This document shows positions 20,124-44,090 of a stretch of DNA of 64,000 bases, piece after piece; within the stretch, counting starts at the first letter, position 1; each line of letters starts with the position of its first letter. Made by a program: the position numbers and the translations under genes. This DNA is from Antrihabitans stalagmiti (GTDB lineage Bacteria; Actinomycetota; Actinomycetes; Mycobacteriales; Mycobacteriaceae). The notes under the pieces were generated by a model that saw only the letters and a list, made by a program, of their open reading frames with translations, ran no database searches and was not told the origin of the DNA. The stretch spans positions 620,001-684,000 of the forward strand of contig NZ_JAEMNV010000003.1 in the NCBI RefSeq assembly GCF_016482825.1. The letters run 5' to 3'.

Positions 20124-20192
20124 GCGGCTTCGCCGCTCGTGAGTCTTTTCGGTGGGCGGGCGCGCCGAAAGTGCGCACGAGCGCGGAGCGCC
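20124..20192. repeat. Composite palindromic repeat, copy 1 (right half decayed)
   Basis: The element starts at the base after the regulator's TAG stop. The left half is a mini-hairpin GCGGC-TTC-GCCGC followed by TCGTGAGTCTTTT. The right half is AAAGTGCGCACGAG then GCGC-GGA-GCGC. The right core differs from the AAAGACTCACGAG of copies 2 and 3, so this copy has diverged. It sits between two convergent genes and may act as a bidirectional terminator. Confidence 0.75.
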
Positions 20193-20199
20193 TCACCCG

Positions 20200-20257
20200 G
20201 AGCTGGGACCCGATCCACATCCCTCCAAATGGACCCGGCCCCAGCTCCCCCCTCGTG
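20200..20257. terminator. Inverted repeat between convergent genes
   Basis: GAGCTGGG at 20200-20207 and CCCAGCTC at 20250-20257 are perfectly complementary around a 42-base loop that holds further G/C-rich complementarity. It lies between the convergent SARP-FHA and proline-rich-protein genes, next to composite repeat copy 1. No T-run is present, so a terminator role is likely only from its position. Confidence 0.35.
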
Positions 20258-20325
20258 GGTAGGACCTAGGTTGCCGTGCCCCGCATGGGGTTTGCTTAAG
20301 AAGTGCTTAAAGCGAGCGGACCCGA

Positions 20326-21390
20326 TCAGGCGGGCGGGTCGCACACCTTCCAGCCGTCGTCGGATTCCTCCAGGTTGAGGGTCCGCGACACCCGGTTGCT
20401 CGGGTCGGCCTTGGTGTACGCGGTCACCGAAGCGATCGCTGTCCTGTCCGTGATCTGGACGGCGTCGACGCTCTGCACGACAGGGATCGCCGCTGTCTCG
20501 ACTGCTGACTTGTAGACATCGGCGAACTGCTCGTCGGTGAGACCGTTGTAGTACTCGGCGCTTGCACCGCACGACGTACGGCGAAGTGTCTGAATGTCGC
20601 CGTCGCCGAGTGCCTTCGAATACGACGCGATCGATTGTCGAATTTGCGCTTCGGGAGTGTTTGCGTCTTCGTTGGTTCCGGTCGCAACGACAGCGACCGC
20701 GACGATCGCTGCAATCAGCAGCAACGCAGCGAACGCAGCTGCGAACCACTTGCCACGCTTGCGTTTGGGAACTTGGGCGGGAGCGACGCGTTGCGGCTTG
20801 GCGACGGGCGGCGGCGGTGGTTTGCGATCGGACTGCTCCGGCGCAGGCGCGGCTGGGGGCTGCTGCGTTGGCGGTGATGCCGGCGGTGGTGTCGCCGCAG
20901 CGGGAGCGGGCGGACGCGGTGCAGGCGGGCGGGGAGCAGGCGGCCGTGGCGCGGGAGGTGCGGGAGTTTCGGCAGGCGCAGTAGCAGGAGGGACCGACGG
21001 CGCGGCGACGTGAGGTTCGGGTTTGCGAACTTGAACGGGCCGGACCGACATCTTCTTCGGATCCGTAGCTTTGGCTGCGGCGGGGATCGCTTCGGTGACT
21101 GCCTCGTCTGCGGGCGACGTCGCAGCCTGCGACGTCGGTGCAGCCTGCTGCACCGGGATGGCAACGGTCGGAGCTTCGGCGCGGGCGGTCTCGGCGGCGG
21201 CCTGCTGCGCAGGGATGGCCACTGTCGGCGCCGCAGCAGCGGAAGGGGTCGGCACGGCTGCCGGCTCAGCGGCTGTCTTTTCAGGAGCTGTATTTTCGGC
21301 AGCAGAGGCGGCAGTCTTCGCCTGGTCTGCTGCGGGCGCGGTGGGACCGGTCGGGGACTGTGGCGTCTTGTTGTCGTTCGCGTCCGGCAC
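20326..21390 (-). CDS. Proline/alanine-rich membrane protein with extracytoplasmic domain (Rv0361-like)
   Basis: A 354-residue protein. The first 230 residues are a disordered Ala/Pro/Thr-rich region that contains the near-repeat APTVAIPAQQAA / APTVAIPVQQAA and a PPAPRPPAPRPPAPRP block. A basic stop (KRKRGK) and one membrane helix (about residues 236-256) follow. The C-terminal domain of about 100 residues contains a Cys pair (TSCGAS, WKVCDPPA). The fold resembles DUF4878/lumazine-binding-like domains. The protein at 58590 has a related helix plus domain. Function is unknown; long disordered cytosolic tails are typical of kinase targets in mycobacteria, which is inference here. Confidence 0.8.
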   Translation of the reverse strand: MPDANDNKTPQSPTGPTAPAADQAKTAASAAENTAPEKTAAEPAAVPTPSAAAAPTVAIPAQQAAAETARAEAPTVAIPVQQAAPTSQAATSPADEAVTEAIPAAAKATDPKKMSVRPVQVRKPEPHVAAPSVPPATAPAETPAPPAPRPPAPRPPAPRPPAPAAATPPPASPPTQQPPAAPAPEQSDRKPPPPPVAKPQRVAPAQVPKRKRGKWFAAAFAALLLIAAIVAVAVVATGTNEDANTPEAQIRQSIASYSKALGDGDIQTLRRTSCGASAEYYNGLTDEQFADVYKSAVETAAIPVVQSVDAVQITDRTAIASVTAYTKADPSNRVSRTLNLEESDDGWKVCDPPA

Positions 21391-21500
21391 GCACTACCCC
21401 TTGTACTTGTTGACCTTTATTGCGGTGTGTGATGCCAGCAGAAGGGCGGAACTGGCACGTCGCTGTTTGCCCCGCCTCGCCGACCGGCACAATGTAACCT

Positions 21501-41871: not shown

Positions 41872-42533
41872 CGCACCAGCAGCCAGGGCTCGTGGTGGCG
41901 GTAGAAAGCCGACCTGGTCTGGCTGTGCGCACTCGGGACCCCGTCACGAACGAGCACTGCGGTACGGGCACCGAGTTGCATCGCTCGCCCCGACACCCAC
42001 CGGCGTCGAGTGAAGACGGTGCGGCGCCGGACATATGCGCGCAACCCCGGCAAAGCGGCAGTCGGCTCGAGCGCGATCGACTCGATCAAACCGGTGAAGA
42101 GTTTGGTGTCGTCGACGTATGCCTCGCCCTCGAGTTTTTCCCCTGGCGGGCCGGTGATCGTGGCGCCACCGACGAGGACGATGCCGAGGTCGTCGCGGAT
42201 GAGCGGCATTTCGACCGGGGAGCCGTTGAGGGCGTTGTTCGCTGCCTGCGCGCCGGTGCCGGTCGAGTAGATCCGCGCGGACGGCGACGGGTCGCACGGG
42301 ACGTACCCGACCTCGACCTGCAGTCTTTCGGTTCGCATCAACACAGTCAGGACCGCCGCGAGCGCCGAATCGTCGCCGAGCACGATCAATCGGGGCTGCT
42401 TCTCGTCGTCGATCGCATGCAGCAGATCCTCGAGATCGCTCGCAGTCGGGATCGGTGGCACCGTCGTCGCAGTGTGGGACGCCAGTGCAAGAGGCACCGG
42501 TCCGTCGCCACAGCGCAGGACGAAGATGTGCAC
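41868..42533 (-). CDS. Conserved actinobacterial protein next to purA (Rv0358-like)
   Basis: A 221-residue soluble protein with VHIFVLRCGDGPVPLALASHTATT at the start, DEKQPRLIVLGDDSALAAVLTVLMRTERLQVEVGYVPCDPS in the middle, and YVRRRTVFTRRRWVSGRAMQLGARTAVLVRDGVP near the end. The middle and last parts recall a diacylglycerol-kinase catalytic-like or nucleotide-binding fold, but I would not assign a function. It is translationally coupled to the M50 protease and divergent from purA. GTG 42533 is the best start. Confidence 0.7.
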   Translation of the reverse strand: MHIFVLRCGDGPVPLALASHTATTVPPIPTASDLEDLLHAIDDEKQPRLIVLGDDSALAAVLTVLMRTERLQVEVGYVPCDPSPSARIYSTGTGAQAANNALNGSPVEMPLIRDDLGIVLVGGATITGPPGEKLEGEAYVDDTKLFTGLIESIALEPTAALPGLRAYVRRRTVFTRRRWVSGRAMQLGARTAVLVRDGVPSAHSQTRSAFYRHHEPWLLVR

Positions 42534-42616
42534 GTAATGCTCCTCGTGTCGGGCGCGGGAATATGACGCGGTGCGAGACTGCCACGATAGCCGCACGCTG
42601 AATGCGCAGAGCATGG

Positions 42617-42647
42617 TTGGGGTGGACCGCACCCTCTCGACTAGACT
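42617..42647 (+). promoter_or_regulatory. Possible purA promoter
   Basis: TTGGGG at 42617-42622 and TAGACT at 42642-42647 are separated by 19 bases. The -10 matches the actinobacterial TANNNT pattern and the ATG is 84 bases downstream. The 6-bp hairpin CTGCCG/CGGCAG follows at 42661-42678 in the leader. This is a weak prediction. Confidence 0.35.
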
Positions 42648-42730
42648 GTGCTCCCGGCCACTGCCGCAGGAACGGCAGGACGCTGCAGCCAGCCTTCGCG
42701 ACGCTGCGCAACGACCGTAGGAGAAACTCA

Positions 42731-44020
42731 ATGCCGGCAATAGTGCTGATCGGCGCCCAATGGGGCGACGAGGGCAAAGGCAAAGCTACGGATCTGCTCG
42801 GTGGCAGCGTCCAGTGGGTAGTTCGGTATCAGGGTGGCAACAACGCAGGCCACACTGTTGTGCTTCCCAACGGCGACAACTTCGCGCTGCACCTGATTCC
42901 CTCGGGCATTCTGACGCCGGGCGTTTCGAACGTGATCGGCAACGGAGTCGTCGTCGACCCTGGTGTATTGCTCGACGAACTCGCCGGACTCGAAGCCCGC
43001 GACGTCGATACCGACAAGCTCCTGCTGTCGGCCGACGCGCATCTGATCATGCCGTACCACGTCGCCATCGATAAGGTCACCGAGCGCTTCCTCGGCAACA
43101 ACAAGATCGGTACCACCGGTCGTGGCATCGGCCCGTGTTACCAGGACAAGTTCGCTCGGGTCGGGGTTCGCGCCGCCGACGTGCTCGACGAGAAGATCCT
43201 CACCCAAAAGGTCGAGGCTGCACTGGAATTCAAGAACCAGGTGCTCGTCAAGATCTACAACCGCCGCTCGCTCGACGCCCAGCAGGTCGTCGACGAGGTG
43301 CTCCAGCAGGCAGAAGGCTTCAAGCACCGCATCAGCGACACGCGCCTGCTGCTCAACGATGCACTCGAGCGCGGCGAGACGGTGTTGCTCGAAGGTTCGC
43401 AGGGCACACTGCTCGACGTCGATCACGGCACCTACCCGTACGTGACGTCGTCCAACCCGACAGCCGGCGGCGCTGCCGTCGGTTCGGGTATCGGACCTAA
43501 CCGGATCACCACCGTTCTCGGCATTCTCAAGGCCTACACAACCCGAGTCGGGTCGGGTCCGTTCCCGACGGAGCTGTTCGACGAATACGGTGTCTACCTG
43601 GCGAAACAGGGCGGCGAAGTGGGCGTGACCACCGGTCGGGCACGGCGCTGCGGCTGGTTCGACGCTGTCATCGCTCGTTACGCGACGCGGGTCAACGGCA
43701 TCACCGACTACTTCCTGACAAAGCTCGACGTGCTGTCGAGCCTGGACACCGTGCCGATCTGCGTTGCCTACGAGGTCGACGGCGAACGCTTCGACGATAT
43801 GCCGATGACGCAGACCGGTTTTCACCATGCGAAGCCGATCTACGAGGAAATGCCCGGCTGGTGGGAAGACATCTCGGGCGCGCGCACGTTCGCAGACCTG
43901 CCGAAAAATGCACAGGATTACGTGCTGCGCCTGGAAGATCTGGCGGGAGCGCACATCTCGTGCGTCGGCGTCGGCCCCGGTCGCGATCAGACGATCGTGC
44001 GCCGCGACATTTTGGCATAG
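42731..44020 (+). CDS. purA: Adenylosuccinate synthetase
   Basis: A 429-residue enzyme that joins IMP and aspartate with GTP to give adenylosuccinate, the first step from IMP to AMP. The P-loop and IMP region read [23 protein letters not shown]. Other conserved parts are [52 protein letters not shown] and [12 protein letters not shown]. The length is normal for the family. An AGGAGA ribosome site lies before ATG 42731. A composite palindrome begins at the base after its TAG stop. Confidence 0.97.
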
Positions 44021-44090
44021 GCAGCTCCGCTGCTCGTGAGTCTTTTCGGCGGGCCCGCCCACCAAAAAGACTCACGAGGCGCGGAGCGCC
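44021..44090. repeat. Composite palindromic repeat, copy 3 (most intact)
   Basis: The element begins directly after the purA stop. It consists of mini-hairpin GCAGC-TCC-GCTGC, core CTCGTGAGTCTTTT, a 12-bp palindrome GGCGGGCCCGCC at the centre (44048-44059), core AAAAAGACTCACGAG, and mini-hairpin GGCGC-GGA-GCGCC. It ends 13 bases before the ATG of LAL paralogue 2. On each strand, a GC hairpin is followed by TCGTGAGTCTTTT, which could terminate transcription from both sides. Confidence 0.88.

Follow-up and report, generated by a model that had tools for sequence, protein, structure and literature searches.

A dispersed family of stop-codon-associated palindromes in Antrihabitans with features of a small mobile element

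The genome of Antrihabitans stalagmiti, a member of a cave-associated genus, contains about 180-200 copies of a short palindrome in 6.39 Mb, three of which are located in the window, the 64-kb stretch of DNA analysed here. Copy number, distribution among genomes and comparison of orthologous sites favour, on balance, the view that these copies are lineage-specific, non-autonomous mobile palindromes of about 46-72 bp, REPIN- or MITE-like in their behaviour, for which the searches did not find a mobiliser.

Copies in the window and distribution of the family

Each unit consists of two inverted arms, CTCGTGAGTCTTT, with the constant part GTGAGTCTTT, at a fixed spacing. The core CTCGTGAGTCTTT occurs exactly five times in the window, once in each arm of copies 2 and 3 and once in the left arm of copy 1, and both the sequence and the coordinates confirmed a preliminary description of three elements at 20124, 34150 and 44021 sharing one core.

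Copy 1 (20124-20191) is composed of a left hairpin (20124-20136, GCGGC-TTC-GCCGC), a left arm (20136-20148) followed by the centre, a variant right arm AAGTGCGCACGAG (20169-20181) and a right hairpin with a 4-bp stem (20181-20191, GCGC-GGA-GCGC). To its left lies a BTAD/FHA (SARP-type) gene (18999-20123, Pfam), whose TAG at 20121-20123 is directly 5' of the element, and to its right a convergent gene on the minus strand (20326-21390). One side of this copy had been regarded as decayed, but AAGTGCGCACGAG is a recurring variant, since a GTGC/GCAC arm is present on one side in 6 of 51 copies. Copy 2 (34150-34219) has hairpins at 34150-34162 (GGCGC-TCC-GCGCC) and 34207-34219 (GCGGC-GAA-GCCGC) and arms at 34162-34174 and 34195-34207; its location between divergent genes, as first described, agrees with the coordinates of a DAO family gene (32923-34065, minus strand, Pfam) and a plus-strand gene (34361-34867). 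Copy 3 (44021-44090), with hairpins at 44021-44033 (GCAGC-TCC-GCTGC) and 44078-44090 (GGCGC-GGA-GCGCC) and arms at 44033-44045 and 44066-44078, is located between purA (42731-44020, Pfam; TAG at 44018-44020 directly 5' of the element) and a plus-strand GerE/LuxR-type gene (44104-46695), which starts 25 nt beyond its right arm. The earlier observation that copies 1 and 3 start at the base after a stop codon was borne out by the coordinates and Pfam assignments of the SARP-type gene and purA.

With up to one mismatch, the arm motif matched this genome 180 times in the forward and 183 times in the reverse orientation; these 363 matches, compared with three for a reversed-pattern control, exclude chance as the source of the palindromes. 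The exact arm pair occurred 55 times, and not at all for the control. The preliminary description had proposed a genome-wide count and had named fewer than a handful of copies as a refuting outcome, which did not come true.

The family is expanded in two of four Antrihabitans genomes, those of this species (G000) and A. stalactiti (G001). The expansion was not found in two other species of the genus (G002 and G003), and no further carrier of it was found among 301 genomes of the bacterial family. The exact arm pair was present in 4 of 397 genomes sampled in the order (0 for the control); G591 has only three exact arm pairs. The same arms with the 46-bp spacing, but with other centres and flanks, were present in A. 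stalactiti, a Pseudonocardiaceae MAG and genome G529; the distance of 33 between the starts of the two arms is kept across genera while the centre and flanks vary. For G529 genes were called on 3-kb pieces, and these calls, being poor (14 of 33 "inside"), were not used; a strand asymmetry among its listed matches was dropped because the listing was uneven.

A scan for a second genome with an exact 46-mer found nothing, the exact arm pair had no matches in IMG/VR, copy 3 had no match in plasmid and phage collections, and Rfam at the gathering cut-off returned nothing at the elements. The arm sequence, in six spellings, was not found in the literature searched, nor was a description of this family found in titles and abstracts on REPINs, actinobacterial MITEs, Antrihabitans, or insertion sequences (ISs) in REP.

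Orthologous sites, gene ends and stop codons

Among 12 resolved sites orthologous between this species and A. stalactiti, the element was found in both species at three and in one only at nine, the latter being filled and empty sites of the kind used to recognise MITEs, with the qualification that several of the compared sites scored as absent have long or poorly aligned gaps. The purA site of A. stalactiti is empty, with 20 nt between the stop codon and the ATG. The three common sites indicate refilling of sites or an old age for part of the family. The comparison fits a small mobile element, although no movement as such was observed.

Gene 3' flanks were within 20 nt of an arm in 59 of 63 cases in this genome and in 79 of 91 in A. 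stalactiti, and the stop codon is often provided by the element, as TAG or TGA. In this genome 29 flanks were at exactly 12 nt, where TAG spans the element edge, and 11 were at -7, where TGA is inside the arm, as it is for 23 flanks at -7 in A. stalactiti; the last codons of one gene are encoded by the element. Insertions at stop codons may survive because the element carries its own stops, formed either by the gene's T and the edge AG or by TGA within CTCGTGAG, in which case genes would be capped, not broken.

This coupling at 12 or -7 nt would be superfluous if the copies were scattered binding sites of a conserved nucleoid or segregation protein, with the arms as dimer half-sites. Such a role would be consistent with the constancy of the arm sequence and of the 33 spacing across genera, where centre and flanks are not constant, and with the independent variation of the two arms in this genome, as in half-sites, but the absence of the family from two congeneric species and from almost every one of the 397 genomes sampled in the order makes it improbable.

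Convergent gene pairs surrounded 21 of 50 copies in this genome (expected 3.5) and 31 of 63 in A. stalactiti, and divergent pairs only 8 and 3, respectively. These positions, together with the very stable RNA fold of the element (-54.4, z -8.2) and the report that most cruciform-capable repeats just 3' of E. coli stop codons belong to intrinsic terminators (PMC6060812), could point to a host 3'-end element, either a bidirectional terminator or a hairpin protecting or processing mRNA 3' ends, that was spread by recombination and retained for its usefulness. We consider this unlikely. The element sequences do not show a U-tract placed after a GC stem in the direction of reading: the T-tract is inside the long stem and not behind it, and relative to the small end hairpin it starts only 9 nt later. 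At tandem sites there was no sense-strand excess of G.U over A.C (9:14 in this genome, 18:12 in A. stalactiti), on which ground RNA-level selection on the long stem was rejected. Arm-to-arm covariation was not found in this genome; in A. stalactiti one column pair (15/32) covaries (51 versus 24.1 expected), which could be explained by subfamilies. Furthermore, one A. stalactiti copy lies directly behind an apparent ordinary intrinsic terminator, two Antrihabitans species manage without the family, and the 8 divergent copies of this genome also argue against a 3'-end role.

Mobiliser searches, insertion sequences and end hairpins

No target duplication consistent over edges and lengths was detected in 52 copies from this genome and 67 from A. 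stalactiti, and 2-nt repeats at the hairpin edge numbered 12 (11.6 expected). A TA duplication, hinted at by the TA on either side of copy 3, was rejected because the 5'-flank base varies and the edge repeats are at expectation. The base preceding the edge AG at 5' flanks was A in 9, T in 8, G in 5 and C in 1 (23 of 38 flanks read NAG), so that the constant GTAG tag of REPs and REPINs is absent. The Y1/HUH transposase domain PF01797 had no match in G000, G001, G002, G003, G023 and G529 and two matches in G591, in a search whose controls gave matches in 5 of 14 genomes; mobilisation by a RAYT/Y1 enzyme was rejected as the carriers G000, G001 and G529 lack PF01797. With neither a target duplication nor a Y1/RAYT transposase, the family was not classed as REPIN or classical MITE. 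The preliminary description had put forward a bidirectional terminator, a REP/MITE-like element, or a nucleoid-protein or RNase target. Of the REP/MITE-like element, the dispersal was upheld by copy number, species-restricted expansion, filled and empty sites and ISs in copies, while membership of REP/REPIN and a MITE with target duplication were not. The patchy occurrence, in two of four Antrihabitans species and G529, makes a search for the enzyme by gene-content comparison tractable.

ISs are inserted into copies at fixed points of the palindrome, and an IS-end pattern that did not require the arm found 15 sites, all of them 30 nt into the unit. In A. stalactiti half palindromes stand on both sides of an ISL3-type IS, with PF01610 on one, at four of the four places found, by a pattern that included the arm T-tract and would therefore miss ISL3 copies elsewhere. 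This arrangement could suggest a classical MITE of a resident DDE IS, such as one of ISL3 type, whose target duplication was lost by decay. That origin appears improbable, and ISL3 as a candidate autonomous partner is weakened: apart from the bias of the pattern, at one ISL3-interrupted site of A. stalactiti this genome carries an ordinary element, consistent with entry of the IS into a palindrome that was already there, the pattern had no match in G000, the ISL3 genes of G529 have no flanking arms nearby, and no target duplication was detected. A full-length partner with the same terminal repeats was not seen in the sampled stretches, the IS bodies of G000 and G001 being unassembled.

In this genome the palindrome also heads a multicopy DUF222 gene unit, being found at the same upstream place in five of eight intact close copies (74-100% identity); the other three lack it, as does a ninth, split copy. 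The DUF222 gene family was rejected as the driver since only five of the eight intact copies carry the palindrome and G529 has no match to the protein.

Mini-hairpins with a 5-bp stem and a 3-nt loop were identified at 108 of 158 element ends in this species (shuffled mean 1.6), at 0 of 134 ends in A. stalactiti, 0 of 64 in G529 and 1 of 18 in the Pseudonocardiaceae MAG, so that spread in general does not depend on them. The loops were TNC/GNA, that is, GNA on one strand, in 69 of 73 element hairpins compared with 25 of 269 in the background elsewhere, and these 69 are GNA-loop mini-hairpins by the definition that two or more G-C pairs close the GNA loop, GCGNAGC being an example (PMC4686876). 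Two hairpin types mixed between copies had been described; several types do occur, but they are more than two (GCGGC 52, GGCGC 31, GCCGC 16, GCGC 8, GGCC 5, GCAGC 4 and rarer others at the ends in this genome), and their mixing is not random. A class delimited after inspection of the data comprises the 38 copies whose stems are standard and perfect on both sides; in 35 of them the two ends differed in stem type and in three they agreed (13.3 expected; a value this low arose in none of 20000 shuffles). Across all 79 copies of this genome, a broader measure of long-range complementarity was only slightly low (6.28 versus 6.64 shuffled; 388 of 5000 shuffles as low), and the rule of unlike ends consequently rests on the 38 copies of this post hoc class. 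A DNA fold of one typed composite gave a clover as the minimum (-34.2), with an ensemble frequency of 0.076 and a centroid nearer to the long stem.

If the copies are mobile palindromes, an enzyme acting in trans would recognise the arms, and in this species perhaps the extruded end hairpins too, and would paste the element in without a detectable target duplication. Unlike ends may prevent end-to-end pairing and favour a three-hairpin clover. A more specific version is put forward only tentatively: a RAYT-free REPIN-like system in Mycobacteriales, in which the enzyme would recognise the GTGAGTCTTT arms (here as an extruded clover whose two ends bear GNA mini-hairpins) and insert at gene termini, built-in stops would make landing harmless, and unlike ends would be kept so that the clover forms and not the long hairpin.

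Comparison with known systems

If correct, this interpretation would place a high-copy family of palindromes beyond the RAYT paradigm. It would also provide a simple rule for how elements persist at stop codons without damage to genes, and a naturally occurring collection, on the scale of a genome, of GNA-loop DNA mini-hairpins that retain local pairing but avoid end-to-end pairing.

Bacterial MITEs such as RUP and Correia are non-autonomous inverted repeats with filled and empty sites, and the family resembles them in both respects. It differs from them in being only 46-72 bp long and a near-complete palindrome, and in that no target duplication or partner IS was found.

As in REP, BIME and REPIN sequences, the copies are short, extragenic, high-copy palindromes made of two inverted halves, which bear hairpins in this species only; "hairpin" and "clover" folds have been proposed as possible for REPINs (PMC3116915), and ISs that use REP palindromes as targets have been reported (PMC1525189). 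By definition, a REP palindrome is preceded by a conserved tetranucleotide, which is mostly GTAG (PMC8266576). Unlike REP and REPIN sequences with TnpA-REP (RAYT), the family has no fixed GTAG tag, and its carriers G000, G001 and G529 lack a Y1 transposase; here, moreover, the hairpin stems are free to change and stop codons are built into the edges.

Phage N4 virion RNA polymerase promoters are GC-rich DNA hairpins with three-base loops and sheared G:A closure that are extruded at physiological supercoiling (PMC4496689). The end hairpins are likewise small and GC-rich with a three-base loop, but they are paired at the ends of dispersed repeats and imply no polymerase. Finally, location, symmetry and a stable stem are shared with bidirectional intrinsic terminators between convergent genes, from which the copies are distinguished by forming one species-restricted sequence family with near-invariant arms and the T-tract in the stem.

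Copy number and distribution of the palindrome

The three elements of the preliminary description were confirmed in the sequence, at window positions 20124-20191, 34150-34219 and 44021-44090, and the genome-wide count that it had proposed was carried out with the arm motif CTCGTGAGTCTTT. At ≤ 1 mismatch, the A. stalagmiti assembly (G000; 6,393,340 bases in 44 contigs, with the window at G000:C23:620001-684000) contained 180 forward and 183 reverse matches, and the reversed-pattern control matched 1 and 2 times, respectively; since each element has one forward and one reverse arm, approximately 180-200 elements are present. 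Copy 1 had been regarded as decayed on one side, a view that did not hold: its variant arm (20169-20181), in which GTGC/GCAC replaces GACTC/GAGTC in one arm only, recurs in five more copies of this genome (6 of 51) and is a subfamily rather than random decay.

Copies 2 and 3 sit in spacers upstream of two related large genes for GerE/LuxR-type regulators (Pfam; 34909-37509 and 44104-46695, both on the plus strand), which have a common stretch at 35219 and 44414; a small gene separates copy 2 from the former. The window also includes a SAM-IV riboswitch (59153-59268, plus strand; Rfam RF00634, 105.5 bits).

Among the four genomes of the genus examined, a 17-mer with ≤ 2 mismatches indicated expansion in two, A. 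stalagmiti (196 + 197 matches) and G001, presumably A. stalactiti YC2-7 (198 + 194), and none in the others (G002 and G003, one match each). Twelve of 301 genomes scanned across the bacterial family had any match, and none except A. stalagmiti and A. stalactiti had more than two. An order-wide sample of 397 genomes, which excludes G001-G003, included four with the exact arm pair (A. stalagmiti, 55; G529, 32; G591, 3; G023, 1) and none with the control. The Pseudonocardiaceae MAG Dino_bin21 was also a carrier among the matches listed, and carriers are at least those named here. Arms and spacing are conserved across carriers (arm starts 33 apart, total length 46 bp) while the centre varies: A. 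stalagmiti has GGNGG..CCNCC, A. stalactiti GGAGTC..GACTCC, the MAG GGGTGCTATAGCACCC and G529 GGTNGCTATAGCNACC. Two MAG loci, L136 and L157, have a common longer build consisting of the left arm and centre, approximately 35 extra bases and then GACTCACGAG, which indicates that the composite was copied.

Placement relative to genes and stop codons

Genes were placed with a home-made codon-model gene caller. Among the 50 of 52 placed A. stalagmiti copies, from stretches partly picked for containing matches and therefore unsuitable for estimating density, 21 were convergent (3.5 expected by gap length; maximum of 11 in 5000 draws), 21 tandem and eight divergent (19.0 expected). For A. stalactiti (63 of 67 placed), the corresponding numbers were 31 (7.3 expected), 29 and three (23.8 expected). 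Gene 3' flanks ended -10 to 20 nt from an arm in 59 of 63 cases in A. stalagmiti and 79 of 91 in A. stalactiti; for 5' flanks within this range the fractions were 1/37 and 6/35. In 29 A. stalagmiti flanks the stop ends exactly 12 nt ahead of the arm, as a TAG using the AG of the element, and stops at -7 were found in 11 (TGA inside CTCGTGA) and in 23 A. stalactiti flanks. One gene has element-encoded last codons (...TELHVRALRAS* in A. stalagmiti versus ...NELHLRSHA* in A. stalactiti).

Eight A. stalagmiti sites were resolvable in A. stalactiti, two filled and six without the element; conversely, five A. stalactiti sites were resolvable in A. stalagmiti, the same two filled and three without it. 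At an additional site common to both species, the A. stalactiti copy holds an ISL3-type insertion sequence (IS). The cleanest empty-site comparisons were purA, with 20 nt from stop to ATG in A. stalactiti, and G000:C12 near 335.1 kb; the remaining element-free sites had longer gaps and aligned poorly.

A 3'-end function for the palindromes is a live rival explanation. At G001:C21:250000 in A. stalactiti, the element directly follows an apparent intrinsic terminator, and the A. stalagmiti counterpart has a terminator-like hairpin only. Tandem sites in the sense direction had 9 G.U and 14 A.C in 20 A. stalagmiti copies, and 18 G.U and 12 A.C in 29 A. stalactiti copies, which gives no sign of selection for a transcript hairpin. 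No arm-to-arm covariation was found in the A. stalagmiti copies; in A. stalactiti arms, column pair 15/32 covaries (51 against 24.1 expected).

End hairpins and predicted folds

End anatomy was analyzed in 79 distinct A. stalagmiti copies with standard spacing, out of the estimated 180-200. A perfect 5-bp hairpin abutted the arm at 108 of 158 ends (shuffled mean 1.6, maximum 5), or 126 of 158 when 4-bp stems were included, compared with perfect 5-bp hairpins at 0/134 ends in A. stalactiti, 0/64 in G529 and 1/18 in the MAG. The stems (GCGGC, 52; GGCGC, 31; GCCGC, 16; GCGC, 8; GGCC, 5; GCAGC, 4; and others) vary in sequence yet keep pairing. Loops read TNC toward the arm and GNA on the opposite strand, a type found in 69 of 73 hairpins of equal geometry in elements versus 25 of 269 in the rest of the sequence sampled. 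With its closing pairs the GNA loop reads GCGNAGC, a type described in passages of PMC4686876 as an extraordinarily stable DNA mini-hairpin; parts of PMC4496689 describe hairpins with this loop type in phage N4 promoters extruding from supercoiled DNA.

The two ends of a copy tend to differ: in the 38 copies with both ends perfect and of standard type, only three had like stem types (13.3 expected; 0 of 20,000 shuffles this low), and a broader complementarity measure over all 79 copies pointed weakly in the same direction. Self-complementary centres occurred in 1 of 79 copies. With DNA parameters, the three-hairpin clover was the minimum for one typed composite (-34.2; ensemble frequency 0.076), the centroid being nearer the long stem; RNA parameters gave a single long stem. 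This end-hairpin rule, stable DNA mini-hairpins with unlike ends, is the most unusual feature of the family and was observed only in A. stalagmiti, except for one similar hairpin at the single G023 copy.

That copy (L198:1501-1556), from another genus, is lone and diverged, lies between convergent genes and has a single GGCGGC-GCA-GCCGCC hairpin, whose loop is of the GNA type and which ends at a TAG stop. It shows the architecture of the A. stalagmiti copies.

Mobility and comparison with known elements

The palindrome stands at one fixed place upstream of a DUF222 gene in five of eight intact close copies in A. stalagmiti (L309, L313, L320, L323 and L328; approximately 90-120 nt upstream of the start), and likeness between the DUF222 copies stops at or near their stop codons, indicating that the palindrome travels in a larger unit too. 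PF02720 was found on both DUF222 genes tested (n = 2), and these multicopy proteins presumably have an HNH-like C-terminus. The multicopy DUF222 gene looks like a mobile gene unit.

One IS, searched by its own end, was found at 15 places across A. stalagmiti and A. stalactiti. Every one of these lies precisely 30 nt inside the 46-bp unit, and the two copies of the presumed opposite end share this position, which would match a duplication of 14 bp spanning the dyad. Contigs C2, C3, C4, C5, C12, C23, C42 and C44 of A. stalagmiti, and contigs of A. stalactiti, end within an IS 30 nt into the palindrome, the ends of this contig-breaking IS being TGTGCTGTCTAGATACATG... and TGTTGAGTCCACATACATATG.... 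In A. stalactiti, an ISL3-type IS lay 16 nt into the unit at four of four places, with a search pattern that included the T-tract.

Membership in REP/REPIN families and in target-duplicating MITEs was tested and not supported: the PF01797 profile was absent from A. stalagmiti, A. stalactiti and G529, and a search for target duplication at element copies found none.

The best supported reading is that the family is a small non-autonomous mobile palindrome, REPIN/MITE-like in its working, with stops built into its edges. Passages of the REPIN paper likewise set long-hairpin and clover folds side by side (PMC3116915), and ISs that target REPs, as described in part of PMC1525189, are a known parallel to the ISs in these palindromes.
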